Origin: a virus
Length of the DNA: 64,000 nucleotides
Reading direction: 5' to 3' (one strand)
Virus record (IMG/VR): IMGVR_UViG_3300029448_000009
Span: 1 to 64,000 of that record
Under the pieces are notes generated by a model. The model did not search any database, was not told the origin of the DNA, and saw only the letters and a list, made by a program, of their open reading frames with translations. Made by a program: the position numbers and the translations under genes. This document shows positions 2,709 to 54,231 of the stretch, one piece after another; the stretch's first letter is position 1, and every line of letters starts with the position of its first letter.

Positions 2709-4052
2709 TTAACTTTCTATTATTTGTACTGCGTCAACACATAAATCACCTCTAAATCCTGTTGCGTTTTGACTTACAAAATATATGTAATAATCAGTGT
2801 CGTTTCTGTAGCTGTTTAAACTAATTGTGTTTTGTTGCCATACACTACTAGTTGCTGTATATCCACTAAATGTTTCATAAGCTGCTAGTTCAGTAGCGTT
2901 GCTATGATTAGAAGATGTTGCGTCATCTATATAGACGTATAAGTCTCCCATTTGAGATCCATAAGCATGAACCCAAAATTTTAAATCTAAATCATTACCA
3001 GAAGAGTCTAACATGTTTGAGCTATTGAATACAGGCATTCTAGTTACAAAAGCATACACATGTCTACTACTAGTTACCTCGGTATACATATACTTCGTTG
3101 CACTAGCATGCGATCCGTCAGAAACATCAACACCGTTATTAGGCCCAGTATTACCAGATGGCGTTGTTCCCGTATCTAAGTTCCAACCTTTAACTGTTTT
3201 ATTAGATGTCCTACCCCAATATGTTCCATCTGTAGCACTTGATCCATTTACCCAATTATTACTTGGAGACCAATCTCCTGTTGTTGTTTGTGGTGTTTCA
3301 CTTTCAAATTGATAGAACAACTGATACGGTGTTGGCTCTGTTGTATTACCAGGTTGAGCAATATTCGCTAGACTAGCTGTACCTATTCCATTTACTTTTA
3401 ATATATCAGCTGGTGGTTCACCAATTACTTTATCAGGAAATTGTTCTAAATAAGTTACTCTTAAACCTATGCCTCTAACAACAACAGCTACTGGTGTAGC
3501 ACTTATAGCTATAAGTGTAATAGCAAAACCAAAACTTGCTTGATCAGCTGGGTCCCAAGACAAACCTGATAAACTAGTTGAAGAACCTGCCATAACATCA
3601 TCTCCTAATGAATTGTTAACATATCTTTTATTTGCTCCAGTTAAAGTAAGTTCAGTGCTATCCCCATTAAGTGAACCTCCAGATGGAGTTGACAGAAAAG
3701 TTAAAGCACTAGAATATGAAGTTCCATTATATAAATACATTTGGTATGTTGCGCTTTCACTGGCTCCAGTACTACCCGCATTACCAATATTTGAATTACC
3801 ACTACCGTCAGTATCTAATCCAGCAACTAGTTCAATTCCTGTTATAACAGCACCACTAGGTATTTGTGATGAATTAAAACAATTAGTCCATAAAGTACCT
3901 TTATTCGCCGCTGTAGCAACAGCAGCTGAGGATCCTGTTGCGGTACTATGTATACGTTGAGGTTGAGACCAAGCACCATAAGTTATTCCATCTCCTATGC
4001 CTGTTCCTACAGCTGCGTTTGTGTTGGGTGCTAAAATACTAGTCGTTGCCAT
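2709..4052 (-). CDS. Fibre/adhesin-like virion protein with a C-terminal MAM-like domain
   Basis: This 447-aa protein has two parts. Residues 1-200 are a Gly/Ser/Thr-rich beta domain (YGAWSQPQRIHSTATGSSAA). Residues about 250-447 look like a MAM-type jelly roll: GDWSPSNNW...GWNLDTGTTPSGNTGP, YMYTEVTS, DLDLKFWVHAYGSQMGDLYVYID, and the closing FRGDLCVDAVQIIES strand. MAM-like domains in marine Bacteroidota proteins bind partners or glycans. In this fibre-gene run a receptor-recognition or host-surface-binding role is likely. It overlaps the next gene by 14 nt. The assignment to MAM is by pattern and needs a profile search. Confidence 0.6.
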   Translation of the reverse strand: MATTSILAPNTNAAVGTGIGDGITYGAWSQPQRIHSTATGSSAAVATAANKGTLWTNCFNSSQIPSGAVITGIELVAGLDTDGSGNSNIGNAGSTGASESATYQMYLYNGTSYSSALTFLSTPSGGSLNGDSTELTLTGANKRYVNNSLGDDVMAGSSTSLSGLSWDPADQASFGFAITLIAISATPVAVVVRGIGLRVTYLEQFPDKVIGEPPADILKVNGIGTASLANIAQPGNTTEPTPYQLFYQFESETPQTTTGDWSPSNNWVNGSSATDGTYWGRTSNKTVKGWNLDTGTTPSGNTGPNNGVDVSDGSHASATKYMYTEVTSSRHVYAFVTRMPVFNSSNMLDSSGNDLDLKFWVHAYGSQMGDLYVYIDDATSSNHSNATELAAYETFSGYTATSSVWQQNTISLNSYRNDTDYYIYFVSQNATGFRGDLCVDAVQIIES

Positions 4053-4249: not shown

Positions 4250-5140
4250 TTAAACGTGTTCTACCCAAGTATTATCAGGATTAAACCATATTTTATTTGC
4301 ATCACCTACAGTTACAGCGTAACCAATTACTCTTACTATATCTCCAGTAGCTGTTGGAGCGGCTGTTGTTGCATCTCCAGTAGTTGCTTTATCTAAATAT
4401 ATTATACTACCTAAAGCCTCTGTACCAACTATATTACCAGCTAAATCTATCATGCCTCTAACTAACATGCCATGAACATCAGGATCAGTACCCAGCGCTA
4501 CGGCTAACCAACCAGTAGCAGTACTAGGATCGTCTGAATTAGTTAAACCCCAACTACCGTCAGATTTATAATAATATATTTTACCAATTACAGTACTACC
4601 AGTTCCTATATAAACAATATCTCCATCTGCATTACCAGCGCCGTCGCTAGGTATAGCAAAATGAGTTAAAGCTACAGTTCCACTTGCATCGGGTAACGTT
4701 ATTGTTTGATCACTACAAGATGCTGGACCAACAAAAGATACTTTATTAGTACCATTATCAGTATCTTCATATAATTTTATAAGACCTGCTGAAGCAGTAG
4801 AACCAGGTATCTCTAATTCATTGCTGGTAATTTTTACTGGATTACCATGAAGAGATAATGCCCCGCCAGAAACTACACCCATATCTCCTCCTAAATTATA
4901 AACTCCAACCACGTTTGTAAAAATTCCACTTGCAAGAGCTACAGATTCAACATCTATTTGACTTGCGCCTCCATATGTTAAAACTCCATTAGACGTAGAT
5001 CCACTAAAAGATAATGAGTCTCCTACATCAACAGTATCCCAAACAGGTTTAGATCCATCCCATTTTAAATATTGCCCTGATGAACGAGTGTCAGCAGAAG
5101 CTATATTATACATGCCAATATATCTACCTGGTTTAGTCAT
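4250..5140 (-). CDS. Tail/head fibre protein
   Basis: This 296-aa protein starts MTKPGRYIGMYNIAS and contains the phage-fibre pattern GQYLKWDGSKPVWDTVDVGDSLSF. It then has low-complexity beta repeats, and about residue 140 the string TITLPDASGTVAL, which is common in fibre and repeat proteins of tailed phages. The C-terminal half (GDIVYIGTGSTVIGKIYYY, TGDIVRVIGYAV) resembles the compact beta domain found at the ends of many marine-phage fibres. It lies in a run of fibre genes. It most likely forms a trimeric appendage that contacts the host. Confidence 0.6.
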   Translation of the reverse strand: MTKPGRYIGMYNIASADTRSSGQYLKWDGSKPVWDTVDVGDSLSFSGSTSNGVLTYGGASQIDVESVALASGIFTNVVGVYNLGGDMGVVSGGALSLHGNPVKITSNELEIPGSTASAGLIKLYEDTDNGTNKVSFVGPASCSDQTITLPDASGTVALTHFAIPSDGAGNADGDIVYIGTGSTVIGKIYYYKSDGSWGLTNSDDPSTATGWLAVALGTDPDVHGMLVRGMIDLAGNIVGTEALGSIIYLDKATTGDATTAAPTATGDIVRVIGYAVTVGDANKIWFNPDNTWVEHV

Positions 5141-5141
5141 A

Positions 5142-5354
5142 TTATTTTTTTGCGAATTTTTCTACGCCGCTTATTCCAAAACATCCTAATACAACCCATA
5201 CAAATGAATCGTATACAAATTTATTAATTACAAGATCATAACCTGCCCATCCTGTTATTAGATCAGCCATCATTATAATACACATTATTACAAAAGCAAT
5301 AAAACCTACTATTGCTTTTTCATTCCAATCATTGTTGTCTTTAAATATATTCAT
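5142..5354 (-). CDS. Two-TM small membrane protein, holin-like
   Basis: This 70-aa protein has two hydrophobic segments, about residues 13-33 (AIVGFIAFVIMCIIMMADLIT) and 47-64 (SFVWVVLGCFGISGVEKF), and a short lysine-rich end (KFAKK). The size, topology and charged tail fit a class II holin, and the end ISGVEKF is common in small phage membrane proteins. With the 3TM holin-like gene at the window edge there would be two candidates for the same job; one may be an antiholin. It has a 1-nt spacer to both neighbours. Confidence 0.5.
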   Translation of the reverse strand: MNIFKDNNDWNEKAIVGFIAFVIMCIIMMADLITGWAGYDLVINKFVYDSFVWVVLGCFGISGVEKFAKK

Positions 5355-5355
5355 G

Positions 5356-5700
5356 TTAAAAATTTATTGTTAATGTTATACTACCTTCTAGTTTACTAAA
5401 ATTAAAGTTTGCCATTACACATATTCCTTCTACACAAAATCCCATACTAGGAGGATGGGTACATTTACAGTTTCCAAAGTTTTTTCTATCATCTCCTCCA
5501 TTTACTAAATCTTCTGCTTTACTTAATATTTGAAGCAATTCATTAGCAAGGCACTCATCAGACAATCTACTGTTTTTATGTGTTCTAATAAGAGTGCCTA
5601 ATTTTTTAGACATAGCTGTTAAATTATCTTTTGTAACAGTATATGTATACAATGTTTTAGACTCTAAAGGTCTAGTTGATATAGTAACAGCTCTTGCCAT
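5356..5700 (-). CDS. Hypothetical protein with a C-terminal cysteine cluster
   Basis: This 114-aa protein starts MARAVTISTRPLESKTLYTYTV, followed by a helical segment (LTAMSKKLGTLIRTHKNSRLSDECLANELLQIL). The cysteine-bearing end has NCKCTHPPSMGFCVEGICVM before a final beta strand. Four or five cysteines within 20 residues suggest a zinc site or disulfides. It has no signal peptide. It is packed 1 nt from both neighbours in the virion transcript. The function is unknown. Confidence 0.45.
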   Translation of the reverse strand: MARAVTISTRPLESKTLYTYTVTKDNLTAMSKKLGTLIRTHKNSRLSDECLANELLQILSKAEDLVNGGDDRKNFGNCKCTHPPSMGFCVEGICVMANFNFSKLEGSITLTINF

Positions 5701-5701
5701 A

Positions 5702-5986
5702 TTATAAATCTAAAAAATCTTGATAAGAATACCCTCCATTTGAAGCTCCTCCTTTTCGTTTCTTTTGTGTTTGAGGTTCATATTCTCCATATTTTTTATT
5801 TCTTGCTTTTTTAGCAGCTGCTGCCGTAGCTGCTGCAGCCGCTGCTGCTTTATTACTCGCATTTTTCTTTTTAGCCTTTTTCATAGCATTATAAGTCATT
5901 CCAGGTATTGACATATCAAACATAGTTTTTCCCATGCTTTTTAATTTTTGTCCTAATCCTTTTCTATTTTTGTTTTTATCTGGCAT
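5702..5986 (-). CDS. Lysine/alanine-rich basic protein with shared C-terminal tag (copy 1)
   Basis: This 94-aa, strongly basic protein runs MPDKNKNRKGLGQKLKSMGK at the N-terminus, then KKAKKKNASNK and an alanine-rich helix (A7-T-A4), then KKARNKKYGEYEPQTQKKRKGG. It ends GYSYQDFLDL, the same nine-residue C-terminus (YSYQDFLDL) as the otherwise different basic protein at 6006-6290. The coding 3' ends are also nearly identical in DNA. The composition suggests a DNA- or RNA-binding protein, and the shared acidic-aromatic tail suggests a common docking or packaging partner. I recognise no family. Confidence 0.6.
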   Translation of the reverse strand: MPDKNKNRKGLGQKLKSMGKTMFDMSIPGMTYNAMKKAKKKNASNKAAAAAAATAAAAKKARNKKYGEYEPQTQKKRKGGASNGGYSYQDFLDL

Positions 5987-6005
5987 AATATATATTTTAT
6001 TTTAT

Positions 6006-6290
6006 TTATAAATCTAAAAAATCTTGGTAACTGTAACCACTATTAGCTCCTCCTTCTCTATACTTACTTTGTTTAACCTTTTTATTTTTAGAAGTTGAAC
6101 TAATACTCATATTTACGAACTTTTTCTTTACTGTGCCATCCTTATTATATTTTGTTTTTCCTGTTGTAGAACTTAATTGCTTATCAGCACCTCTTGATAC
6201 TCTTTTTTTGACTGTTCCATCCTTACGATATTTTATTTTTATTTGACTACCATCGCCTCTTGTTCTTTTACTAACATTTTTTCTTTCCAT
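6006..6290 (-). CDS. Basic protein with internal KDGTVKK repeats and shared C-terminal tag (copy 2)
   Basis: This 94-aa, very basic protein carries two copies of a motif, KYRKDGTVKKRV (about 20-31) and KYNKDGTVKKKF (about 47-58), joined by a Ser/Thr-rich linker. It ends GGANSGYSYQDFLDL, matching the C-terminus of the protein at 5702-5986. Equal length (94 aa) and the same tail, with different bodies, suggest diverged paralogues or two cargo proteins addressed to the same place. Likely roles are genome condensation or an ejected internal protein. These are inferences from composition only. Confidence 0.6.
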   Translation of the reverse strand: MERKNVSKRTRGDGSQIKIKYRKDGTVKKRVSRGADKQLSSTTGKTKYNKDGTVKKKFVNMSISSTSKNKKVKQSKYREGGANSGYSYQDFLDL

Positions 6291-6300
6291 GTTTTTAATT

Positions 6301-7011
6301 TTATTTTAATTTATATTTAATTTTACCATCTTCTATATATAAACCTTCACGCTCTTTTATAGCCTGTCCGTTTAAATTATATAGTATATTGTTGGATTTA
6401 GATTTATTTATTAATTCATCTATAGACGAGTTACAAGGTTGCCCTGTATCACAATCTATGTATTCTGTAACATATTCTATAAACTCTACATATTCTATTT
6501 CTACAATTGTATCGTAAACAAATACGTCAACATATTCAATAACATCTACAAAAAGAGTATCTAAGATATCTTCGTAAATAGTTACTGTGTCTGTTATATA
6601 AATGTATTCTGGAACAAACACTTCTACTTCTACAGTGTCTATTACAATGTTGTATATATATTCTGTATTAACTATAGTATCAAATATTGTTTCATATATA
6701 GTTTCATATTCTATTTCATATATTGTATCACACTCTTCTATAATAGGAGGTAAACAATCTAATGGTGATGTTGGCTCTGCATCTGCTTCATCTGACCCAT
6801 CTGCACAATCTTCCCATCCATCATTAAGATAAAATAGATCTGGACCATTAGGTACACATCCATCAGGTGAATATTGTGTCCAGTTAGCTGGATCATCTCC
6901 ACAATAAAATCCATTTTGTTCAGCGCACTGTAAACATAGTTGTTGAAAGTCAAATTGCGAATAAGCAAACGAGCTTATAAATGCAAATAATATAATAAAG
7001 AGTTTTTTCAT
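6301..7011 (-). CDS. Secreted protein: signal peptide, LDLa-like acidic box, Tyr/Thr/acidic repeats, T9SS-like tail
   Basis: This 236-aa protein starts with a clear signal peptide (MKKLFIILFAFISSFAYSQ). Residues about 25-80 have six cysteines and the acidic box DGWEDCADGSDE, the calcium-binding core of LDL-receptor class A modules. Residues about 95-190 are a low-complexity beta-prone run of short Y/T/I/V/E/D units (IYEIEYETIYETIFDTIV type). The end reads ILYNLNGQAIK followed by GLYIEDGKIKYKLK, resembling the last half of a Bacteroidota type IX secretion (type A) sorting domain. Its predicted route is the Sec system, then the host T9SS to the cell surface. The upstream gene encodes an outer-membrane barrel. 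A truncated sorting domain is also possible. Confidence 0.65.
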   Translation of the reverse strand: MKKLFIILFAFISSFAYSQFDFQQLCLQCAEQNGFYCGDDPANWTQYSPDGCVPNGPDLFYLNDGWEDCADGSDEADAEPTSPLDCLPPIIEECDTIYEIEYETIYETIFDTIVNTEYIYNIVIDTVEVEVFVPEYIYITDTVTIYEDILDTLFVDVIEYVDVFVYDTIVEIEYVEFIEYVTEYIDCDTGQPCNSSIDELINKSKSNNILYNLNGQAIKEREGLYIEDGKIKYKLK

Positions 7012-7013
7012 AA

Positions 7014-8066
7014 TTAAAAGAATAAATAGTTAAATCCAAATTTTACTTCATATACTGGTTTTTCCCAGTACTTCATATGTGTCCCCTCTATAAATAATCC
7101 TAAATTTTTTGTTATCCTTTGTCCAAATACTATTCCCGCATCCCATTCTAACCAATCTAGATCTTGTGTACCGTACTCAAAAGAGTAATCATCTAAGCCA
7201 TAATGATACGGTAAACAATTAACCCAAGCATGTAACCAAAACTTAGGTGTATATTTATAATATGCAATTCCTATTACTGCACTTAATTCTTTTTGTATTC
7301 CTAATTTATCTAACTCTCTTTCATTAAAACGTGCAACTGCATCTCCAAAGTAGTGGTTAAAGAACTCATCATTACTTGTTGCTACAAGAGTAGAATCACC
7401 TTCTGATACATCATACCAGTTATTATTAACATAAAATCCTTGAATCCATTGTTCTGGAGCATATCCAAAGTCCTCTGCTAATTGTTGAAAGGATGACTCG
7501 CCAGGTACCCAAAAGTCCCTAATAGGTACAAAGCCATAAGCAGGATGAGCTCTAACCACCGCTCCTACTGTAAAATCCCAGTTTCCTGAGTTTATTCTAT
7601 ATCTTGTATCAAAAGAAGTAAATTGTAAATTTACTCGCTGATTGTTTTTATATTGTGCTTTGGTTACACATTTAGTTCCTAAATATCTAATCCAAAAATT
7701 TTGATCAGTAAATTTTTCACCACGATTCCGTATAAAAGAATAATTAAAAAGATACTCCCAGCCATTAGCATTACCAATAGTAACGTTGTCTGAAACAGCT
7801 CTTTCAGTACCATAGTACCATGTTTTAACTTTATATTCATAATCAAATCTTGCTATTTTACGAATTCCTACGGTTAAATTATAATCATAAGGATTAATAT
7901 CTGTAACATCTTGATAACCTTTATCTATAGCTACATAATCTTCTCTTTCAGTAAAAGAGGTATTCGTGCTCATAGATGTGTAGAATGTAGAGTATTTAAA
8001 AAAATCTTCTATTTGACCGTTACATACACTGCTTATAAAGATAAGCAAAATTATTATATTTTTCAT
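7014..8066 (-). CDS. Phage-encoded outer-membrane beta-barrel protein
   Basis: This 350-aa protein has a signal peptide (MKNIIILLIFISSVCNGQ). It then has alternating amphipathic strands rich in Y, F and W (YNLTVGIRKIARFDYEYKV, WEYLFNYSFI, LGLFIEGTHMKYW) and ends VKFGFNYLFF. A C-terminal phenylalanine after alternating hydrophobics is the classic outer-membrane insertion signal. Its start overlaps the stop of the lectin-like gene by 1 nt. Host expression from a virion-type operon suggests a function in the infected cell, such as receptor masking or superinfection exclusion. No specific family is recognised. Confidence 0.7.
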   Translation of the reverse strand: MKNIIILLIFISSVCNGQIEDFFKYSTFYTSMSTNTSFTEREDYVAIDKGYQDVTDINPYDYNLTVGIRKIARFDYEYKVKTWYYGTERAVSDNVTIGNANGWEYLFNYSFIRNRGEKFTDQNFWIRYLGTKCVTKAQYKNNQRVNLQFTSFDTRYRINSGNWDFTVGAVVRAHPAYGFVPIRDFWVPGESSFQQLAEDFGYAPEQWIQGFYVNNNWYDVSEGDSTLVATSNDEFFNHYFGDAVARFNERELDKLGIQKELSAVIGIAYYKYTPKFWLHAWVNCLPYHYGLDDYSFEYGTQDLDWLEWDAGIVFGQRITKNLGLFIEGTHMKYWEKPVYEVKFGFNYLFF

Positions 8067-8917
8067 TATAAATTATATTTTTGTGTTAATTGTCTTTCTA
8101 CTTCTCTTATTTCTTTTTCAGGTAAAATTGCATTAAAAACTAGTATTTCATATACATGTAATCCATTTGCATGACCTTCAATTTGTATTAAATGATTAGA
8201 ATTAATATCAAAAGCATAAGTATGATCTTTAGATGCCCCATTAGTTATTTTGGGACTACCATTTTTTTTCATAACACTACTTCCACTAGCAGCTAATTTA
8301 ACTGTCCAAAGTTGAAGTACATTATTTGTAGTAGCTGTTCCACTATCTACTATAACAGTTCCACTTTTATCACTTTGATCTCCTATAAACATTTTAACGT
8401 TTTGATCACTATTTATTTGAAATATTAATGGATCTTGCCCAGTAACACCGTCTCCTGTTTTCATAGAAAATATAGCGGCTTGTCCTGAAGAATTTACTAA
8501 GTTAAATACTATAAATAAAGTTAAAGCATCTCCTTCTAATCTACTTTGTGATAATAAATTATTTCCTACATTGCCTACTGTTTCAGTAGCACTTAACTTA
8601 ACATCTGTACTTGCAAAAAGAGCATAAGGTAAATCTCCGCTTAATCTATATATAGGTCTGTTATCTGCAGTAGCTTGTTTTAAAGCTGTACCTAAAGCAG
8701 CGTTATCAGCTTTACCAAATCGTTTATCAAAAGCTTTATTTGAAACTGCATATATACCGTCATTATGATTTGCCTTAGTAGACATATCATCACTATATAC
8801 AGTTCTTTTATCTGTAAAGTCAATCCATAATACAGGTCCATTTTTTATTCTAGACATTTTTTTCTTCCTAAATTTAGGGGCGGTACTACTTGCTTGTTTA
8901 GAGATACTTAATCCCAT
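8066..8917 (-). CDS. Concanavalin A-like/LamG lectin-fold virion protein
   Basis: This 283-aa protein has a short basic start (FRKKKMSRIKNG). It then shows the LamG/ConA-like pattern: GPVLWIDFTDKRTVYSDD (about 28-44), a central AIFSMKTGD...FQINSDQNVKMFIGD sandwich, VLQLWTVKLAASGSSVMKKNG, and the terminal LHVYEILVFNAILPEKEIREVERQLTQKY. The last string (YEILVFN-x-x-L-x-x-x-E) is a common end of phage LamG domains. It probably binds a host glycan as part of a fibre. The next gene in the transcript is the outer-membrane barrel. Confidence 0.7.
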   Translation of the reverse strand: MGLSISKQASSTAPKFRKKKMSRIKNGPVLWIDFTDKRTVYSDDMSTKANHNDGIYAVSNKAFDKRFGKADNAALGTALKQATADNRPIYRLSGDLPYALFASTDVKLSATETVGNVGNNLLSQSRLEGDALTLFIVFNLVNSSGQAAIFSMKTGDGVTGQDPLIFQINSDQNVKMFIGDQSDKSGTVIVDSGTATTNNVLQLWTVKLAASGSSVMKKNGSPKITNGASKDHTYAFDINSNHLIQIEGHANGLHVYEILVFNAILPEKEIREVERQLTQKYNL

Positions 8918-11306: not shown

Positions 11307-14300
11307 TTAAGGTCCTTCGTCAGTTATTGTTACATCATCACCGTCTACTTCTAAATTAATTCCTCCTACTTGAATGCCATTATCTACTATGTTGTAAGTA
11401 TATGGCTCGGTTGTGTTAACATTACTTCCAATAACACTATTACTATTTCCTACTAAATATGAACAAGGACTACATGATTTACAGTACTCACTTGCAAATT
11501 TATAAAATTTATCTAAATAATTTGTATTTTCTGTTATAATTTTTGGATCTATGCATATATCAAAGTTGCTAAATCCTGTTCCATAAGGATTACCACAATT
11601 TGATCCACAATTATTATTTACCTTATGAATAGTATTAGGAGCTTGATCTCCTAACCAAGGAAACTGTGTTGTCATTTTTATATATGCATTAGTTCCATAA
11701 GATCCATTTCCTTGTCCTGTATTATTAGTTTGTGTCCATTCTATACTACCACCTTCTTTCCAAATGTCTTCACATGTTTTCTTTTCAGGATAATTTGGAG
11801 TTGCTGAATCTGCACAATTGTGTATACAATCTAATCCATTTTTAGATACTAAGTATTTTATAAAAGACATTATCATTATATTTCTATCTTCACAATTATC
11901 TTTAGATCCTCCTAACAATCTTGTATACCAATTACCTACTCCATTATATGTGCAATCGGTTAAATATTTTTCTTTTTGTGTTTTATTTAAAGGTAAACAT
12001 TCAGGTTGATTTGCACTAAATGTACACATACCAAACACTTCAGGTTGATCTAACATAAGTTGATTAACATAAAAATCACCTGCCTGAGCGGGAGTATTAC
12101 TTGTTCCTTGTTGAATAAGATATACTAAATTTATTGATCCTATTCCAGCTCCTGTATAATTAGATGCATATTTATCTACACAACCAATAACGTCATTAGC
12201 TAAATAACTCTCGATTCCATTAACATCATAATATTGTATAGACGGGTCATTACTATTTAGACTGTAACCAAATGAAACAGTCGTAGCTCCTGAATTATCA
12301 TTAATTATTTGCCCTTGTGAATTATAATTATAACAAAATTTTCCATCTCCAGCAGGAATTACCATTTCAATTATATAATATCCATATCCTCCTGTTCCAT
12401 ATTCTAAAGGTTGAACCATATTCCAAGCTATAGAGTTACCACTAGGATTTACACTACCATCTGCATTCCAAGTTCCAAATAAAGGATTATTATAATTTGG
12501 TGAATCTAATCCTGTAACTTTTCCATAGCCGTCAGGTGTTATATCCATTTTTTCTTTTATTGGGAATTGGTAATCATTTATAGAATTTCCATTAATAGTC
12601 CCAGCTCCCATTGGAAGTTTATATATATTTATTTCTACTCCTGGAGGAAGATAATTTACATAACCCCCAATTACTGTAAAAGTACTCCATGTAAAAATTA
12701 AATCTCCAGTTGAATATATATCAAATGTTCCTGCTTGTATTGCAGAAGTTAAATCACTTCCTGATAATGCCCCGTCAAATGTTAAAAGTCCTAAATTAGA
12801 ATATCCGCCACCAGTATCCCCAAATACAGGACAAGTATCACAAGATTCATTATCTGCAATTGTAGCTAGTGGATTGTAGTTTAAAGCTAAAGAATTTGTA
12901 CATCCTAAAATTCCATACACACATTGACCATTGTCTATATTAGCATCAGGATTATAATTTGCTGCTGACATATCTGTACAACCTAAAAGTACAGGTATAC
13001 ATGATCCATTATCCCATTCTGCATCACAATTATAATTAGCAGCTGTTTGATCTGTACATCCACCCATTGCAGCAGTTTCTTGCATTATTAACATTCTAGA
13101 TGTAGCAGAAATATTTCTATTACAGTCTGTTTCTGTTATATGCATTGCTCCTCTTTGTGTACATTTAGTTTGAGTATTTTCTACCATTACTTCTACATAA
13201 TCTCCTTCAGATGCTAAGTGCGGACCAAACCCTTGTTTTCTTTCTCCCCCAATTACCCAATTAATTACATCATAAGAACCTCTACCGATACTTAAGCTTT
13301 TTACACAAGCTTGATTTGTATCATTAGAAATAATATTTACACTATCTTCACTGCAATTATATTTACAAATATTTTGTGTATGATATGTAGCATTAGGATC
13401 ATAATTATTTGCATTACGATCTGTACAACCTCCATATCCTATTTGAAATCTATGAACACTTTTACAATTAGCAACATTAGGAACTTCTTCTACATATGCT
13501 TCGATAGCATACCATCCTGGAGCTAAACCTGCAAAAGTATATTGAAAATTTGCATCTACTGCTACAGTAGAAGTAGCTGTTAAAGCTAAAATTTCTGCCT
13601 TAGTTTTATTATTTGCATTTTCCCCACTTCCTAATGTATGTAACTTTAACTTATAAGCCTCATTAGCATCTGATGCTATATGATCTGCTAAAGGAGGAAA
13701 TAACTCTCCCGAAAATTGTATAGATCCTGATGTACCACCGCTACCTGTAGCATGACTAACTACAGATCCACTGTTAGCTACAAAATCCACACCTACTGCT
13801 CTATCGTGCCCGTTATCATCATCTCCATATGTTAAACCATTGTATGGATTGCCATAAGCATCATTTGTTACACAGAAAAAACAAGTAGCATCTTTATTAA
13901 GAACATAACCAGTATTATCATAATTTGCAGCTGAGTTATCTGTACAAACTCCAGATGTTATCTCTTCTTGATTTATTTTAGTTTGAAGACTTATATGAAC
14001 AGTTTTTACACAACTAGTAGCATCAGTTACTGTAACTAAATACGGTTTAGTATTAGAATCTTGTCTAATTAAACTTGTAAATGAATGTGTAGTACCTGAT
14101 TTAGCTCCAGATGAAACTTCTGTTCCTGCACCTGTGGCTCCAAATTTAGTTAATACATATGTATAATTAGCTGTACCTCCAGTTACTGTTACTAAAATAG
14201 AACCGTTAGTATTTGCAGCATCACGTTGTTCAGGACTTGTATTTTCTACTGTTATAGAAAAATCATCACATCCAGAATTACAACAATGCCCATCTACAAA

Positions 14301-15248
14301 TCTTTTATTTGTATAAGGTGTTCCTATAGTATCACTATCACAATCTTCTCCAGATGTTAGGAAAAAAGAAGGATTACCTGGTTCCATACATACTTGATAT
14401 TCTTGTGCATCATCTGCTATAAAATATAAATTAGATGCGTATGTAAAACCATAAGTAAATGGTGCTGTATTTAAATTATTTAAAACATCTTGATTTGTAC
14501 CTAAATTTGTATTTGTTGTAAGTAGATTTACAAAATGTATTTCTTGTTCATTTCTACCAGAATATAAATGTCCTACACCTCGATTAGATATTCCATTATC
14601 TACATCGTTATTAGTTGAAGTAACACCTTGTTCTACAAAAATCTCATTTAAATAAGATGAGTTTATATAATATGCAAAAGGTAAGTTTAGTTGATATGTT
14701 CCTGTATAATTGTATACATCGTATGGATCTTGTTTTGGATATACTGCTCCTACAATAGAATTAATACTTCGTTTGTCATTAGAAAAATCTAAAGACATCA
14801 TATTTTCATAAGGTGAAGTTGTAAACGATGCAATAGTATTTTCTACATCATCATTTAGTTTAGAAGCCAGTCCTGGTACTTTTAAAACAATTGTTTTTTT
14901 AAACCCAGAAACAAACTGTAACGTTAAAGTTTTACTAGACGCTTGTCTTTTTGTCCAGTTTTTATAAGTAATAAGTATTTTACCATCACTTTCATAATCA
15001 AAATCTATACCAGAAATATAATCATGATCTACTACTGTTGCTACACGATCATACTCATAACGCATATTAGATCTAATATCAATTTTTAAATGATTATTAG
15101 ATTGCAAATACGCAACTCCTTGTACAAATTTAGGAGAAGTATTTGTGTATGCGGTTATAGGAGTTGACCCATTACCAAATACAGACTTGCCATCAAAACT
15201 AGAAAATCTGTCGTCAATAGTTGAAGTATACTTAGTTGTTTTTGCCAT
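11307..15248 (-). CDS. 1313-aa cysteine-rich repeat adhesin/appendage protein
   Basis: This is the largest protein of the virion arm. The N-terminal 300 residues are beta-rich (VGAVYPKQDPYDVYNYTG). Residues about 325-420 look like an Ig/SprB-type repeat (DDFSITVENTSPEQRDAANTNGSILVTVTGG...YTYVLT). From about 430 to 830 there are at least five copies of the GCTD-x-x-A-x-NY-(N/D)-P/x...C unit, two or three of them adjacent at about 725-810, plus degenerate copies around 435 and 1030. Such repeats occur in secreted Bacteroidota proteins beside type IX sorting domains. There is no signal peptide here, so it is probably a virion component assembled in the cytoplasm. It is likely a host-recognition appendage. 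Confidence 0.65.
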   Translation of the reverse strand: MAKTTKYTSTIDDRFSSFDGKSVFGNGSTPITAYTNTSPKFVQGVAYLQSNNHLKIDIRSNMRYEYDRVATVVDHDYISGIDFDYESDGKILITYKNWTKRQASSKTLTLQFVSGFKKTIVLKVPGLASKLNDDVENTIASFTTSPYENMMSLDFSNDKRSINSIVGAVYPKQDPYDVYNYTGTYQLNLPFAYYINSSYLNEIFVEQGVTSTNNDVDNGISNRGVGHLYSGRNEQEIHFVNLLTTNTNLGTNQDVLNNLNTAPFTYGFTYASNLYFIADDAQEYQVCMEPGNPSFFLTSGEDCDSDTIGTPYTNKRFVDGHCCNSGCDDFSITVENTSPEQRDAANTNGSILVTVTGGTANYTYVLTKFGATGAGTEVSSGAKSGTTHSFTSLIRQDSNTKPYLVTVTDATSCVKTVHISLQTKINQEEITSGVCTDNSAANYDNTGYVLNKDATCFFCVTNDAYGNPYNGLTYGDDDNGHDRAVGVDFVANSGSVVSHATGSGGTSGSIQFSGELFPPLADHIASDANEAYKLKLHTLGSGENANNKTKAEILALTATSTVAVDANFQYTFAGLAPGWYAIEAYVEEVPNVANCKSVHRFQIGYGGCTDRNANNYDPNATYHTQNICKYNCSEDSVNIISNDTNQACVKSLSIGRGSYDVINWVIGGERKQGFGPHLASEGDYVEVMVENTQTKCTQRGAMHITETDCNRNISATSRMLIMQETAAMGGCTDQTAANYNCDAEWDNGSCIPVLLGCTDMSAANYNPDANIDNGQCVYGILGCTNSLALNYNPLATIADNESCDTCPVFGDTGGGYSNLGLLTFDGALSGSDLTSAIQAGTFDIYSTGDLIFTWSTFTVIGGYVNYLPPGVEINIYKLPMGAGTINGNSINDYQFPIKEKMDITPDGYGKVTGLDSPNYNNPLFGTWNADGSVNPSGNSIAWNMVQPLEYGTGGYGYYIIEMVIPAGDGKFCYNYNSQGQIINDNSGATTVSFGYSLNSNDPSIQYYDVNGIESYLANDVIGCVDKYASNYTGAGIGSINLVYLIQQGTSNTPAQAGDFYVNQLMLDQPEVFGMCTFSANQPECLPLNKTQKEKYLTDCTYNGVGNWYTRLLGGSKDNCEDRNIMIMSFIKYLVSKNGLDCIHNCADSATPNYPEKKTCEDIWKEGGSIEWTQTNNTGQGNGSYGTNAYIKMTTQFPWLGDQAPNTIHKVNNNCGSNCGNPYGTGFSNFDICIDPKIITENTNYLDKFYKFASEYCKSCSPCSYLVGNSNSVIGSNVNTTEPYTYNIVDNGIQVGGINLEVDGDDVTITDEGP
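12840..13070 (-). repeat. Tandem GCTD/NYNP cysteine repeats in the 1313-aa protein
   Basis: Read on the minus strand, this part of the gene encodes three adjacent units: GCTDQTAANYNCDAEWDNGSC, GCTDMSAANYNPDANIDNGQC and GCTNSLALNYNPLATIADNESC, written here as unit examples of about 21-22 residues separated by short linkers. Each unit has a cysteine at both ends and an acidic loop in the middle. Related, more diverged units occur upstream and downstream in the same protein (for example GCTDRNANNYDPNAT). Confidence 0.75.
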
Positions 15249-19574: not shown

Positions 19575-21029
19575 CTAGGACGCTGTACACGTAATATCTA
19601 GAGAAGTATCAAATCTTTTCAAAATGATACCAGCTGTTTTTAACATGTGAACAGAAGCACCATCTACATCAGATGCTCTTGCACTTCCTCCGTCAAAACC
19701 TCTAGGCACTACACTACCAGCAACACACCATCTCATCATTTCTCTTCCTTTTTTAGAAAGCATTTGAAGGTTTGCTTGACCGTCATAATTAGACTGATCA
19801 ACAAATACCATTCTGTATGATTCAAGTGAGTAACCAGTTACAGGGTGTTTACCAGCTGCTTGAGCAACAGGACCATGATCAAATAAAGGTAGTTTAACTA
19901 CATTTACTGAATGTCCGTCTACGTGCTCGTAAGAAGTAAAGTACCCAGAAAGTCCTAATGATCTACCTGAACCAGTGATGAACCTATTCTCTCCACCAAC
20001 TTTCCAAGAGCCTGCAGCTGTTGTAAAGTGATTTTTAAGAGCTTCATCAAATTCACGCATACCACCAGTACCTGTATAAAGCGTTACTTGTTTTTTGTTA
20101 GCATCAGTCATACCATAGAATAAATCACCAATAATGTTTTTGATTTTAGTCTCTGTCATTGTAGAGTAAGAATCTTTATTAACGATTTGTTCAAGTAATC
20201 CTGGACCAACAATTACTGGCTGACCATTTTCATCTTTCATGAAAGTGTGTCCGTCAGAATTATATGTTTTTTGTCCGTACCAGTAGAACATCTCACACTC
20301 TTCTTTAAAGTTAAGCATGTGTTGATATTCTTCATAATCCATCCATAATTTTGTAGTCGCTCCTCCTTTAGTAGGTAATCCAAACTCAACTACATAATCT
20401 CGCGCGTGACCAGACATGTGATAAGATTTTCTTACTGTACCAATTTTGTTACGAACTAAAGCTGGAGTTTCCCAGTTTGAAGCGTTTCCTCTTGAGAAAT
20501 CAACTCCTACTGGTGCATACAATTGAGCCCAAAGATCACCTGCAGTAAATCCTGAAGATAATGTTGCACTTGTAGATGGGTTAACTAATTGTAATGTATA
20601 TTTCCAATTTCCTGTTCCTGCTGCTGCTTCTGGTTCTTTCATAATACGTGCTAATTCTCCTGCGGAGTTTACTAGTACGTAAGGAAATACAAACCATTTG
20701 TCAGGAAATTCTAATGTGAAGGTCCCTCCTGCTTGACCTAAGTTTGCACCACTATTTGTCGTTGCTACTGGTCGTGTCTTTCTCTTGTGAGTAGATACAC
20801 GATATTCATATTCCAATCTATCCATTGACTTAACGTTTCCAACCCCTTCCGTCAAGAATGATAGTGGGAATCTTTTATCGTCTTTACCAGCCAAATGTGT
20901 GATAATCGGAGATAATTCAGTAGGCTTTGACATAAGGGCGTTCGCTAGACTGTTCATATCAGTCATTTGAGAATCATTATAAAACGTTTTTACAACGCTA
21001 ATGTTCTTACCTTGTTGTGACATTGCCAT
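19575..21029 (-). CDS. Major capsid protein (HK97 fold, crAss-like)
   Basis: This 484-aa protein starts MAMSQQGKNISVVKTFYND and continues with ALMSKPTELSPIITHLAGKDDKRFPLSFLTEG, then MDRLEYEYRVSTHKRKTRPVA. Length, absence of a signal peptide, position between a scaffold-like gene and the connector gene, and the N-terminal and central motifs (GTFTLEFPDKWFVFPYVL, EECEMFYWYG) agree with crAss-like major capsid proteins. Codons are GC-richer than those of neighbours, as expected for a highly expressed gene. A cluster of hairpins follows it. Confidence 0.8.
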   Translation of the reverse strand: MAMSQQGKNISVVKTFYNDSQMTDMNSLANALMSKPTELSPIITHLAGKDDKRFPLSFLTEGVGNVKSMDRLEYEYRVSTHKRKTRPVATTNSGANLGQAGGTFTLEFPDKWFVFPYVLVNSAGELARIMKEPEAAAGTGNWKYTLQLVNPSTSATLSSGFTAGDLWAQLYAPVGVDFSRGNASNWETPALVRNKIGTVRKSYHMSGHARDYVVEFGLPTKGGATTKLWMDYEEYQHMLNFKEECEMFYWYGQKTYNSDGHTFMKDENGQPVIVGPGLLEQIVNKDSYSTMTETKIKNIIGDLFYGMTDANKKQVTLYTGTGGMREFDEALKNHFTTAAGSWKVGGENRFITGSGRSLGLSGYFTSYEHVDGHSVNVVKLPLFDHGPVAQAAGKHPVTGYSLESYRMVFVDQSNYDGQANLQMLSKKGREMMRWCVAGSVVPRGFDGGSARASDVDGASVHMLKTAGIILKRFDTSLDITCTAS

Positions 21030-21058: not shown

Positions 21059-22213
21059 TTAAAACAAATCTAAATTTAAATCATCAATATCTACATCTGA
21101 ATACTTTGGTGTTCTTTTGGCAGATTTACTGCTTTTAACACGTTCCTTGCTACTTACTATTTTATCTTTTAAAGTACGCGTACTTTTTGTTCTAGCTTTT
21201 ATGTCTATCATCTTTTCTAGATTAAAACCCTTAAACATTAAATAGTCAATTGCAAGTTTAGTATCCATATCAGATTCTGTATGGTCTAAATCTCTTTGCG
21301 TGTAACCTTCTTTGGTTACAGGTTTAGAAAGATAATCAAAAAATTTATTTTTTTCTCTTTCTGGGACCGCAAGCCCTTTAAAACTTTGTGATGTATCTAT
21401 GGTTTCATAAACACCATCCCAAAACTTTTTTTGTTCTTCTTTAGCTTTTATCTGCTCTTGCTTTTGTTGTTCAACAGCATTTTTTCGATAAGTAGCTTGA
21501 GAACTAACTAATGCTTTTTGTGCATTAACTGCTTTATTATAAAGTTTACCGTTGTCTTCATAATCTTCTAACAACTCATTAATAAACTCACTATCATGAC
21601 CTTTAGTTTTAAAATATTCTGCTAAAAAATATTTTTGAACTTGTGTGTCATCTTGAGACATCTTAACTCTAGAGTAATCCGATCTAGGATCATGCATACC
21701 CATAAAATCTTGACTTTTACCTCCTGACATTACGTATTCCATGTGATCTTTAACTAATGGAAACTGTTCAAATAATTTATCTAGATTTTCATCTGCCATT
21801 TGAACACCAATGTCTTTTGTTAATTCTACTAAACCTTCAGTAGTATCATCATATTTGTCATCAACGTCATATCCAAGTTTTGCTAAGACTGCTCCTACAA
21901 TTGTATCATCTTCTACTCTTTCTGCCTCAACTTCATCAGTCTCTTTTGAAACTTCTGTCTTTTTTGTCTTTTTAGAAACTGGTTTCTTAACCTCTTCATC
22001 CTCTTCTTCTTGTTCCTCTTCTTCTTGTTTAGAAGCAGCGTCATCATCAAGATTAGCTTCTGCCAAAATTTGATCACTCTTTTCTTCACCTTCTTCTAGT
22101 TTAGGTTCAACTTCTATAGGTTCTGCAGTTTCAACTGCGTCTTCAATACCTTCTCCTAACATATCGTCAAAAGAAATATCATCTATGTTTATTTTTTTAT
22201 CATCTGTACTCAT
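21059..22213 (-). CDS. Acidic scaffold-like protein
   Basis: This 384-aa protein has a very acidic N-terminal third (FDDMLGEGIEDAVETAEPIEVEPKLEEGEE, then an EEEEQEEEDEEV run) followed by a basic hinge (KKPVSKKTKKTEV). The helical C-terminal half is rich in Q, K and E (YRKNAVEQQKQEQIKAKEEQKKFWDGVYETID) and ends with a basic-acidic tail (RTPKYSDVDIDDLNLDLF). This composition and its place just upstream of the capsid gene match capsid scaffold/assembly proteins of tailed phages. No protease motif is visible in the window's head block. It has a candidate promoter -7 box 23 nt upstream. Confidence 0.6.
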   Translation of the reverse strand: MSTDDKKINIDDISFDDMLGEGIEDAVETAEPIEVEPKLEEGEEKSDQILAEANLDDDAASKQEEEEQEEEDEEVKKPVSKKTKKTEVSKETDEVEAERVEDDTIVGAVLAKLGYDVDDKYDDTTEGLVELTKDIGVQMADENLDKLFEQFPLVKDHMEYVMSGGKSQDFMGMHDPRSDYSRVKMSQDDTQVQKYFLAEYFKTKGHDSEFINELLEDYEDNGKLYNKAVNAQKALVSSQATYRKNAVEQQKQEQIKAKEEQKKFWDGVYETIDTSQSFKGLAVPEREKNKFFDYLSKPVTKEGYTQRDLDHTESDMDTKLAIDYLMFKGFNLEKMIDIKARTKSTRTLKDKIVSSKERVKSSKSAKRTPKYSDVDIDDLNLDLF

Positions 22214-40576: not shown

Positions 40577-41344
40577 ATGGCTATAACAAGCAACAATTCA
40601 GATCAAGAGGTCATGGGTAGCATTAAAAGTTATTCAGGACTTTCAAATTTTAATGTAGTAGCAGTAAATCCTACAATGCAGGAACTACACGCTATGGACA
40701 TTAAAGTAAAACAAGAACCAAATTATTTCTTAGAACTAAATGGTGAAGACTATTTCAAAGTTGTATTTTGGGTTAAGAACGAAGATCTAACTACTAGAAT
40801 GGAGGTCTTAATGCAAAATAAAACAAGAACTAGTAAAACTGGTAAATTTCAATGGTTAAACTCTGTAGGTCAATCTACATGGTCAGAAGGTAATCCTTCT
40901 TATGACTGGTGGCAAAAACCTGAGACATCAAGAAAAGCTTTTACTGGTGAGGAAACTTTAATTAATTTTGTTAAAGCATGGGCTAATGTAGCACCAGGTG
41001 GAGACGTATACTTTGAAACTATTGATAAAATAGTGCAAGGGAATGTAACAGAGTTAAAAGAACTAGTAAAAATACTAGCAGGAAACCAGGTTCGATTATT
41101 AGTAGGGGTAAAAGATGGTAAATATCAACAAGTTTATACTAAGATATTTGGCAGAATTAAACCACAAAGAGATGATTTATTTGTTAAATCATTAAACGAT
41201 GAGTACGGATCATTTAACGCAGAGTTTGCTACTGACCTTAAATGGGGTGAGTTTAAACCTGAGTTAGCTGTTGTATCTCCTGACCCTAGTGGTGCAGAAG
41301 ATCTTCCATTCTCTTCTGGTGATGAAGACAAAGATTGGGTATAA
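40577..41344 (+). CDS. Single-stranded DNA-binding protein, phage type
   Basis: This 255-aa protein has an OB-fold-like body (PNYFLELNGEDYFKVVFWVKNEDL, then KTGKFQWLNSVGQSTW, then GNQVRLLVGVKDGKYQQVYTKIFG). Its acidic C-terminal tail, DLPFSSGDEDKDWV, ends with an acidic-aromatic residue cluster like other phage and bacterial SSBs, where it recruits replisome partners. It is located between the NTPase and the primase genes. Identity of the family is by architecture and context, since no strict motif defines phage SSBs. Confidence 0.7.
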   Translation: MAITSNNSDQEVMGSIKSYSGLSNFNVVAVNPTMQELHAMDIKVKQEPNYFLELNGEDYFKVVFWVKNEDLTTRMEVLMQNKTRTSKTGKFQWLNSVGQSTWSEGNPSYDWWQKPETSRKAFTGEETLINFVKAWANVAPGGDVYFETIDKIVQGNVTELKELVKILAGNQVRLLVGVKDGKYQQVYTKIFGRIKPQRDDLFVKSLNDEYGSFNAEFATDLKWGEFKPELAVVSPDPSGAEDLPFSSGDEDKDWV

Positions 41345-52100: not shown

Positions 52101-54231
52101 TACCTTTAAACAATACAAAATCTTCATATATAGACTTTAAGTCATTTTCATCTAGGTAGTCTGGATGATTTACATCTTGTATACCTACACCAGATGTAAC
52201 CAAACTAATTCTTTGTGCAACTTTATCTATTAAACTTTTTATGTCTCCTTTTACAACAAGTTCTTGCATACCATCTTCTAGGATCTCTATACGAGCTTGC
52301 AGCTTAGCAAAGTCTGTTCTTTTAGCTTTTATATTTCTTTGTTGAGTTTTTAATCTTTTAATTTGATTATCTAATTTGTTTACTAGCTCGTCTAGTTCTT
52401 CATAATCTGTTTTTTCTAAAGCTACAGCAATAGATCTTAAGAATTCTGGATTTGTATGCGCCATTTCAAACTTAACAAGGTTATTAGTAAAGTTTTTAGC
52501 AACTGTTTTTGCAAATTCTACATGGATTGGTATGATTCTTGTTCTATTAAACTTTTCAACTTTATGAACCTCTTGTAACATATTCATATAAGTACTAATC
52601 TGTGTGTTATAGCTATCCATTTTTTGTCTAAAAGGATTTTTATCTATTTTTCCTTTATCTGTATAATAACTAGATGGAGATATTGTTTTCCAATCAAGTA
52701 GATCCATACTAGCGTCTGAATATACAACAGCAGCATCTATAGTTCCTGCTACGCCTGTCAGCCCCGCCATTTTACTGTGAGGATTTACAATTCTTAACTC
52801 AGTAAGTAAATTAGCTTTTCCTTCACCAATCTTTTTTTGTTGGATCTCTATTTGTTTAATATGATTTCTTACACCTGTTTTAAATATCTCAAAGTGTCTT
52901 CTAGTCATATTAGCTTCAGCTCGAATTTGTTCTAAAGTTTTTGTTCCTACACCATCTACATCTATAACATCTATTAAATCACTTTTACCTCCATAAAAAT
53001 TCATTAACTGCTGTGCAGCATTATGTATTCTAATACCATTTTTTCTTAAATGTTGACTTCTTTCTAGGTTAGATATTTCTAAAGCTCTTTGTTTACCTTT
53101 TTGTCTAACAAAATCTCTAGTACTTTTATCTGTAACACGATTACTAATAATATATTCTACTCCGTTTTTAGTAAATTTATATCTTTTCAGTTTTTTACCT
53201 TCAGAAAACTCTTCTATAACCTCTAATTGTCTAGGCAGTTTACCATCCTCTTCTTGTATCCATTCTTTTATAACTAAGTTTTTATGATCTTCTTTTAGAC
53301 TGTTAGTTACCTTTTCTTGTGGAGTTTCTGTTTCATTTGTTTCTTCTTGTTGTAACATTTCAACGTCCCCAATCTCTTCCACGGCATCTTTATATGTTGT
53401 TTTACTTTCTAGCAACATATTTTCCGCAGCTGCTAAAAATGGATTATTCTCTCCTCCAAAAAATTTCTTAATTGCATTTAATACTTTTTGAAACCATCTA
53501 CCAAATCTAGATATGTTTGGCTTACTTTCTGCAGAAGAGTGTGTGTTAACAACTTCAGCTGCTATTAGTTTTCCTATTGCTTCGTCTCTTAGTTTAGACT
53601 GATTAGGAGAACCGTCCTCGTTTTGATATAAAGGATTAGAAGAATACTCATTAGTTACTTTCTTTAACATGTCGTACTTATCTATACTTCTTAGCATAGA
53701 TTGGTATAAAGGACTATCTTTAGCCTTTAACAGTTCGACAAATAAATGTGATGCTTCTTCAGGTAATGTAGTTATATCTGCTTTACCTCTTACAACTTGA
53801 ACAGTTTTTAATAACGTATCTAATTTAGCAACTCCTGAAATGTTATTACCTGCACGATCTGTAAGGCTGTCTACAACCTTTGTAGTAAATCCAAATTCGA
53901 GTAAAAAGTCTTTCATTCTTTCATTTAACTCTTTATTTGCATCTTCTATAACGGGATCTGTTTCTTGCTGATTATAAATATTTACTTCAGGTTTAGGTAA
54001 AGTCTCCATAACAGACTCGACACTTTCTATGTACGGTTCCCCATTCTCATCTAAAACATCTTCAAATTTATTTTTAAATGCTTTTGTTTGAGTCTCAAGC
54101 CATACTTTATGCGCTTCTTCTTTGCTGCCCAGTCTAGAAACTAGATCATTAAACAGGTTAGAAGGACTACCATTGTTTGCGTATACTTGTGATACACTCC
54201 CATCTATATTTTTTACTACGTTACATGCCAT
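49171..54231 (-). CDS. Giant 1686-aa virion-cargo-type protein with PD-(D/E)XK nuclease motif
   Basis: This gene lies immediately downstream of the RNA polymerase gene and its start shares a base with that stop codon. Near residue 157 the motif LPEEASHLFVELL resembles the zincin-like element found in phage 'polyvalent' proteins, with E replacing the first His of HExxH. Residues about 495-516 (GTIDAAVVYSDASMDLLDWKT, cited as G-T-I-D ... D-W-K-T) form a PD-(D/E)XK nuclease core. The rest is long charged helices up to about 1100, then a mixed C-terminal part with hydrophobic stretches. Such giant partners are packaged with the crAss-like RNA polymerase and ejected into the host. Confidence 0.7.
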   Translation of the reverse strand: MACNVVKNIDGSVSQVYANNGSPSNLFNDLVSRLGSKEEAHKVWLETQTKAFKNKFEDVLDENGEPYIESVESVMETLPKPEVNIYNQQETDPVIEDANKELNERMKDFLLEFGFTTKVVDSLTDRAGNNISGVAKLDTLLKTVQVVRGKADITTLPEEASHLFVELLKAKDSPLYQSMLRSIDKYDMLKKVTNEYSSNPLYQNEDGSPNQSKLRDEAIGKLIAAEVVNTHSSAESKPNISRFGRWFQKVLNAIKKFFGGENNPFLAAAENMLLESKTTYKDAVEEIGDVEMLQQEETNETETPQEKVTNSLKEDHKNLVIKEWIQEEDGKLPRQLEVIEEFSEGKKLKRYKFTKNGVEYIISNRVTDKSTRDFVRQKGKQRALEISNLERSQHLRKNGIRIHNAAQQLMNFYGGKSDLIDVIDVDGVGTKTLEQIRAEANMTRRHFEIFKTGVRNHIKQIEIQQKKIGEGKANLLTELRIVNPHSKMAGLTGVAGTIDAAVVYSDASMDLLDWKTISPSSYYTDKGKIDKNPFRQKMDSYNTQISTYMNMLQEVHKVEKFNRTRIIPIHVEFAKTVAKNFTNNLVKFEMAHTNPEFLRSIAVALEKTDYEELDELVNKLDNQIKRLKTQQRNIKAKRTDFAKLQARIEILEDGMQELVVKGDIKSLIDKVAQRISLVTSGVGIQDVNHPDYLDENDLKSIYEDFVLFKGITDKTIKYFDDKLKNSKNKEEARNYQDAFNAASTIVNNNLQRVRDAWMQKITTKAQRDDIDLSETPKTTGWLSKNFTTMDVFPHPAFRAAYKKIYQSFNKTKAVTDGIYEEIQDITFGPKDKNGKRNGGLNKWAKDNGMTLTEAFRDVLIEETKNEKDETIFKTLVPMFSKDFRDQIKTKQEKGDEVWMKENFKIKEGARKKFNQMRKNMIAREEFLHPDLREYNDKGKLVVKPSKNMAIRKANIKRWDEKYNVFDPLYGKAWLNQYWGMFLEPKNPQDNYSEKFKRIAANKPVLDYYNKYRETIENMSNQANINIGPNFIANVKDDMMESLLNNGLGFKGMNEMADALSRSFMIKEETETMGVFNYNNDGSMISQIPLPYLNDLTNSHGEVAAGMKSTDLSKSLYLLATSLYNHKHMGEIESYVMGLKEMVIERGEAVTKKGQLQYQGSEIRKQDASPELLATYDKFINFYLYGQKIQDEDSTMLGISKIKTIKTLQSIYSAKVLGFAVIPGIAARITGGFNAFYNGIDGVHYNNKQLNIARKAFIQLGTDQNKAWHALVQYIDPFQSGLTWQKARDLSAKASNKWLDLNNWYAPLRNPDENIDGMITVAMAQNHGIDKEGVLQRLVDLPAGTKSLWESFSKNHKEGNLIIEGLTQSSYEDFRLRVKAMARKIKGEMSDENITAFSTSLTGQIMMQFKSWMPGVVESRFGDRKYNDVLKVLEEGRYWGFLKGLGTGSHGKTLLREELGFKTILQGSLQKGLDAITQLAFLNKFITDPAEKAKLEKEGKWTPAMEKKFKSRTKAAETEFERWKRNQTDKRLQNIPFKEFLRMRQRSVKRTLAEIRALLGMYIAAMAMGMGVGPDDEKFKNKTWLSRKMYMLLARTQMELGFTLNPVEFATFTRGLIPLTGLFTDSIKVVNNGWTESLEMLSIIPENKRDKTPMFYHTLKFVPGWSQLRRVLEVYDQDKNNPYVTRI

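Follow-up and report, generated by a model that had tools for sequence, protein, structure and literature searches.

Encapsulin cargos carry short C-terminal cargo-loading peptides, which are shared by unlike cargos and dock inside an HK97-fold shell. Terminal peptides are also shared by the internal proteins of phage T4, of which IPII and IPIII start with MKTYQEFIAEA and IPI starts with MKTFKEFTST (read from NC_000866). Crassviruses, the most abundant viruses of the human gut and common at sea, carry protein as well. In crAss001 virions, the cargo stored in the capsid and the tail amounts to ~5.5 MDa (PMC10172136). We found no loading signal reported in the literature for the known crassvirus cargo proteins. 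For the choice of proteins that enter the crassvirus particle, a constant peptide with swapped bodies offers a testable candidate signal. Here we describe such a peptide.

The DNA analyzed (the window) comprises positions 1 to 64,000 of the 85,154-bp IMG/VR record IMGVR_UViG_3300029448_000009. Judged by its virion genes, the phage is a relative of the Crassvirales: the head, portal, and terminase proteins match crass-type PHROGs (phrog_11589, phrog_6547, and phrog_6681) at E values of ≤1e-84, and the best annotated-phage matches of the head protein are crAss phages (29 to 32% identical). Farther downstream, the record has matches to crAss001 gp43 (E 1e-8), gp47 (E 1e-24), and gp49 (E 1e-8) and weak ones to gp44 and gp45 (E 0.005 to 0.008), with the gene order kept. 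We infer a marine origin for the phage from its IMG/VR relatives. The gp47 homologue is a giant open reading frame (ORF) (54231 to 63950, running past the window to record position 68564; 4,777 aa) with an RNA-polymerase-like DFDID motif. A 1,313-aa protein (11307 to 15248) with an SprB repeat, a repeat of Bacteroidota gliding adhesins, and a 447-aa protein (2709 to 4052) with a MAM domain are likely receptor-binding or adhesin parts.

An earlier note on this DNA had described two adjacent 94-aa ORFs with an identical C terminus, and both are present on the minus strand (Table 1). Gene A encodes a protein of net charge +16 with an Ala/Lys-rich, helical body that ends in ...KKRKGGASNGGYSYQDFLDL; the product of gene B has a net charge of +18, holds two KY.KDGTVKK repeats in its body, and ends in ...SKYREGGANSGYSYQDFLDL. 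The last ten residues, GYSYQDFLDL, and the stop are the same in both, and the part that we refer to as the tag is YSYQDFLDL. The bodies, as the note had also held, are unlike. With the last 16 residues removed, blastp gave no match between A and B at E values of ≤10. A profile-profile comparison, in which each profile was built from the body and its homologue, gave a probability of 96.6% on the tail only and of 0.2% (E 0.31, 9 columns) when the tail columns were removed. Homology of the bodies, which would have counted against the note's reading, was thus looked for and not found. AlphaFold (AF2) models of both proteins are of low confidence overall, except for a three-stranded sheet in body B (residues 6 to 33; pLDDT about 80 to 90). 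The model of A has helices at residues 9 to 26, 30 to 66, and 88 to 92, and in both proteins an unstructured linker is followed by a short helix at the tag (88 to 92 in A and 88 to 93 in B). All Pfam matches of the tagged proteins were below the cutoff, and these and the PHROG matches were rejected as low-complexity noise; searches of annotated phages with either protein gave no match even at E values of ≤10. No third GYSYQDFLDL C terminus was present among the ORFs of the window or, by DNA pattern, elsewhere in the record. The sequence SYQDILD in the giant RNA-polymerase protein (position 63011) was considered as a second tag and rejected, since in the related record L018 it is kept no better than its surroundings.

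Table 1. Positions, in the window, of the tagged genes, their neighbors, and the head-side features discussed in the text.
Feature	Position	Strand	Remarks
Downstream flank gene, 114 aa	5356..5700	(-)	100% identical in L002
Gene A, 94 aa	5702..5986	(-)	ORF; last slot, adjoins 114-aa gene
Tag codons YSYQDFLDL, gene A	5705..5731	(-)	Ser = TCT, last-slot type; GGASNGG in front (5732-5752)
Exchangeable stretch	5742..6297	(-)	Against near-identical L002, no alignment at the identity of the flanks, only two 81-82% patches
Gene B, 94 aa	6006..6290	(-)	ORF; first slot, directly after 236-aa gene
Tag codons YSYQDFLDL, gene B	6009..6035	(-)	Ser = AGT, first-slot type; GGANSG in front (6036-6053)
Upstream flank gene, 236 aa	6301..7011	(-)	Acidic, net charge -39; signal-peptide-like start
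350-aa gene	7014..8066	(-)	Clade found with this query; 108 IMG/VR relatives
Major head protein, Crassvirales type	19575..21029	(-)	phrog_11589, E 4.9e-85
Acidic 384-aa protein before head gene (scaffold position)	21059..22213	(-)	C terminus DDLNLDLF

The order of transcription is 350-aa gene, 236-aa gene, gene B, gene A, 114-aa gene. The 350-aa neighbor has 108 relatives in IMG/VR. The tag occurs in only four records, namely, that of the window, L002 (two tagged genes, of 98 and 72 aa), L017 (one, of 118 aa), and L018 (two, of 98 and 115 aa). All seven tagged proteins end in YSYQDFLDL at the extreme C terminus, preceded by a variable Gly-Gly linker, and by blastp they fall into five body types (A, B/E, C, D, and F). 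The homologue of A in L002 is 67% identical (64% for the bodies, E 1e-14) and sits in the first slot of that phage, and the homologue of B in L018 (E_L018), in the first slot like B itself, is 48% identical (43% for the bodies, E 1e-9); the remaining bodies pair with none (E ≥ 0.1). Among the 1,109 genes compared, which come from 80 related loci, every pair of proteins with like C termini (BLOSUM scores of 53 to 63) and unlike bodies was a pair of YSYQDFLDL tags, and the next-best pair scored 43. A scan of IMG/VR for the tag pattern returned 24 stretches, in which C-terminal placement occurred only in records of the tagged clade; the match in L004 and the other matches were rejected as internal or chance. 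Genomes of 84,980 bacterial and archaeal species yielded five DNA matches to the pattern, none of which ends a recognizable protein (in L121 the upstream frame is interrupted by stops), and thus no host protein that the tag mimics was found. The 114-aa neighbor bears a weak resemblance to longer proteins from L010 to L015, in their C-terminal part (SDECLANE ... HP.C.C); these loci had been found via this gene and were rejected as relatives, being unrelated phages without tags.

Comparison of the four records indicates that the tag keeps to its gene slot while the bodies in front of it are exchanged. L002 is 97.4% identical to the window over 4666 to 5741 and 94.1% identical over 6298 to 8158, and the downstream block stops at 5741, within the codons just ahead of the tag. 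For L017 and L018, the downstream block reaches precisely to the first tag codon (5731), and homology returns at 6293 and 6282, respectively, ahead of the cassette; between the block ends there are only short patches of 58 to 79 bases, chiefly at the other tag. The codons of the tag follow the slot. All four genes of the last slot (A_win, C_L002, D_L017, and F_L018) encode the serine by TCT, and all three of the first slot (B_win, A_L002, and E_L018) encode it by AGT; the single tagged gene of L017 is assigned to the last slot since the 114-aa gene comes directly after it. Tag DNAs differ at 1 to 3 of 27 nt within a slot and at 4 to 8 of 27 nt between slots, and the partition by slot ranks first of the 35 possible. 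Every one of these differences is silent, against an expected silent share of ~16% for single changes. Body A itself is found with a TCT tag in the last slot of the window and with an AGT tag in the first slot of L002. Some bodies, moreover, have untagged partial relatives (C in L017:9421-9696, B/E in L090:2443-2952, and F in L064), and bodies and tag therefore have separate histories.

Taken together, the alignments show, at the level of sequence, that bodies have been exchanged by recombination upstream of retained tags, and the codon pattern indicates selection on the tag peptide. We rejected a recent gene conversion that would have copied one tail onto the other, since tags within one genome differ more than same-slot tags between genomes. 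Could the tail instead be the conserved functional end of a tagged gene that was duplicated in tandem long ago, its disordered bodies having since diverged beyond recognition? The copies are basic and adjacent, are of equal length in the window, and have the [KR]xGG linker in common, and YxPQTQKK stands ahead of the tail in both A and C. We nevertheless regard such a history as unlikely: homology drops sharply at the tag between phages that are otherwise 94 to 97% identical, one body occurs in both slots with each slot's own tag codons, and the untagged partial relatives also speak against it. The slot-bound codons, the silent changes, and the lost body homology argue against both plain duplication and recent gene conversion. 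The recognition peptide proposed in the earlier note is thus well supported, by five body types, seven identical tags, silent-only changes, and a tag that keeps to its slot; the role that the note gave it, capsid loading or binding of a phage enzyme, is plausible.

The constant C terminus, a variable [KR]x-GG linker followed by YSYQDFLDL, suggests an address tag. Our best explanation, which we advance tentatively and at somewhat less than even confidence, is that the tagged genes encode exchangeable small cargo proteins and that the tag loads them into the virion. Late in infection, the amphipathic acidic tag, modeled as a short helix on a flexible tail, would dock on a virion assembly component, candidates for which are the inner face of the head protein, the scaffold, and the portal/cargo complex. 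The basic bodies would then go with the DNA into the cargo zone of head or tail, be ejected into the host, and diversify as injected DNA-binding or antidefense effectors, as in the T4 internal proteins. Capsid loading is favored because of the late virion-gene setting, the cargo-storing virions of crassviruses, and the analogy with the T4 internal proteins. No prohead or maturation protease was recognized among the scanned head-side proteins, many of which have no family, nor was a cleavage motif recognized in the tagged proteins. If this reading is correct, small injected proteins could be listed by tag instead of by homology, and a tag that works on reporters would offer a way to study how proteins are delivered into Bacteroidota.

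The tag might instead dock on an intracellular machine, such as the host beta sliding clamp, the virion RNA polymerase, or another enzyme, and recruit basic DNA-binding bodies to it. Beta-clamp-binding hexapeptides show Q..L.L spacing. QDFLDL has this spacing, with position 2 of the clamp motif unmatched, and only 0.9% of internal 9-mers score as well as the tag against QLDLF; acidic/hydrophobic C-terminal peptides commonly behave in this way, and the bodies are basic. Against the classical motifs QLSLF and QLVLGL, however, the score is unremarkable (equaled by 21% and 41% of 9-mers, respectively), the tagged genes lie on the late structural strand, at a distance from the genes for polymerase A and the DnaB-like protein, and no clamp-like protein was recognized among the replication-side proteins scanned. 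A clamp-motif lookalike also forms the C terminus of the acidic 384-aa protein encoded ahead of the head gene, which argues that the resemblance is cheap. We consider docking on such a machine improbable, about on a par with the old duplication. The tip of the 384-aa protein, [DE]DL[DN]L[DNS][LI]F, is kept in five records and less exactly in two more, and it is an attractive though unproven clue that C-terminal acidic/hydrophobic tips may dock on the head protein. As a candidate target of mimicry by the tag, this C terminus was set aside as no more than a lead: 8% of 9-mers are as similar to the tag as DDLxLxLF is, an unremarkable likeness.

It is very unlikely that the constraint acts on DNA rather than on the peptide, with the 3' end serving as a recombination joint or as a translational-coupling element for the next gene. 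The last-slot tag does end 1 nt before the next start codon, and homology does stop at the tag; however, the silent differences between slots, including the TCT/AGT serine switch, leave the peptide unchanged, as does the 12- to 29-nt spacer that follows the tag in the first slot, and a DNA element would not preserve amino acids. Least probable of all is a tag that governs how a noncargo complex (lysis, or tail or head decoration) is stabilized, cleaved, or assembled: the neighbors include a membrane-like protein of 70 aa, proteins that look tail-associated, and one that is thioredoxin-like, but the tag does not resemble ssrA-type tags, and the bodies are strongly basic, with a turnover like that of injected effectors.

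A second terminal peptide, MAFKMKGF, was found in related loci, where 33 of 1,060 distinct proteins begin with M[AGS][FY]K[ML]; the frequency of this motif inside proteins would predict 0.07 such starts. It directly follows the 236-aa homologue in L021 and the 350-aa gene in L026, L027, L037, L040, L050, and L062; in the loci of the tagged phages it was not found. A scan of the collection for ATG-A-F-K-M-K-G-F returned at least 120 stretches, and among the matches listed, 86 closed ORFs fell into 44 body clusters, some of which may be distantly related, since they were drawn by blastp at an E value of 0.01. Proteins with MAFKMKGF(S/P).F are small, have unlike bodies, and number up to three or four per marine phage (L021:7751-7912; L026:7056; L027:7056; L036:5606 and 8383; L050:7048, 8908, and 11622; L054:8375 and 9857; L062:4681, 7006, and 10308; and L144 to L223). 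Neither YSYQDFLDL nor MAFKMKGF was found in the text of the literature searched. The C-terminal tag and the N-terminal MAFKMKGF bring to at least two the terminal peptides that the clade places on unlike small proteins, and both may serve the same purpose. It is conceivable, though we hold it with distinct reserve, that marine crass-like phages have modular address-tag systems, in which each lineage has its own terminal peptide and effector bodies are swapped behind it by recombination. Such systems would give a sequence handle on injected proteins that are otherwise unrecognizable.

Shorter modules recur as well, and the small proteins of the clade look like mosaics of them. F..AR..GK.TF... 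is found inside unlike small proteins (L018:8103-8450, L048:8441, and L064:1-245). Short basic proteins (record 84667-84858, L054:9857, and L017:9421-9696) share the EF-hand-like FPDL..DGK(I/V)T.AD.L.GRGVI and also GGDKTKAG.YSKKFVP.MKK, which recurs in L002 within the body of tagged protein C. Near the C terminus, DQNEDVPF(A/G)D occurs both in a thermonuclease-like protein and in a 45-aa protein of CDGSH type unrelated to it (L026:7893-8300, L029:7973-8380, L030:7989-8417, L093:7417-7554, and L094:7418-7555); this motif looks like the tail of a single-stranded-DNA-binding protein, and a 255-aa protein of the window (40577 to 41344) has EDLPF near its end.

How does the tag compare with the described systems? 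The T4 proteins IPI, IPII, and IPIII are similar in that they have small variable bodies and a short, near-constant terminal peptide on unlike proteins of one phage. The T4 capsid targeting sequence is N-terminal, however, whereas the tag is C-terminal in all seven proteins, and the T4 proteins, which are packaged and injected and from which a phage prohead protease removes the peptide, belong to an unrelated lineage. The score of the tag against MKTYQEFIAEA (SYQDFL resembling TYQEFI) is reached by none of 723 other C-terminal 9-mers and by 0.08% of internal ones, in a comparison that was post hoc and one of several. Because the likeness was noticed afterwards and the peptides are at opposite ends, we treat it as a lead and not as membership. 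The cargo of PhiCrAss001 (gp45, gp46, and the RNA polymerase proteins) offers a parallel in the same order of viruses, with a related gene block and cargo-carrying virions, but its known cargo proteins are large (60 to 277 kDa) and have no reported terminal address peptide, whereas the tagged proteins are ~10 kDa. The 1,345-aa protein at the gp45 (cargo 1) position (record 70663-74700, L007:6663-10700; minus strand) has 28 [KR]x0-3GG motifs against 7.7 expected (0 of 1,000 shuffles), and GG motifs are also many in crAss001 gp45; since enrichment of the [KR]xxGG linker is weak in A (P = 0.02) and not significant in B (P = 0.24), this likeness is only a lead. Encapsulin cargos differ from the tagged proteins in being loaded into a nanocompartment rather than a virus, and the tag has no sequence likeness to the one encapsulin peptide compared (score unremarkable). 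The MAFKMKGF of other marine relatives is like the tag in being a terminal peptide on unlike small proteins in the same gene neighborhood and unlike it in being N-terminal, unrelated in sequence, and far more widespread.
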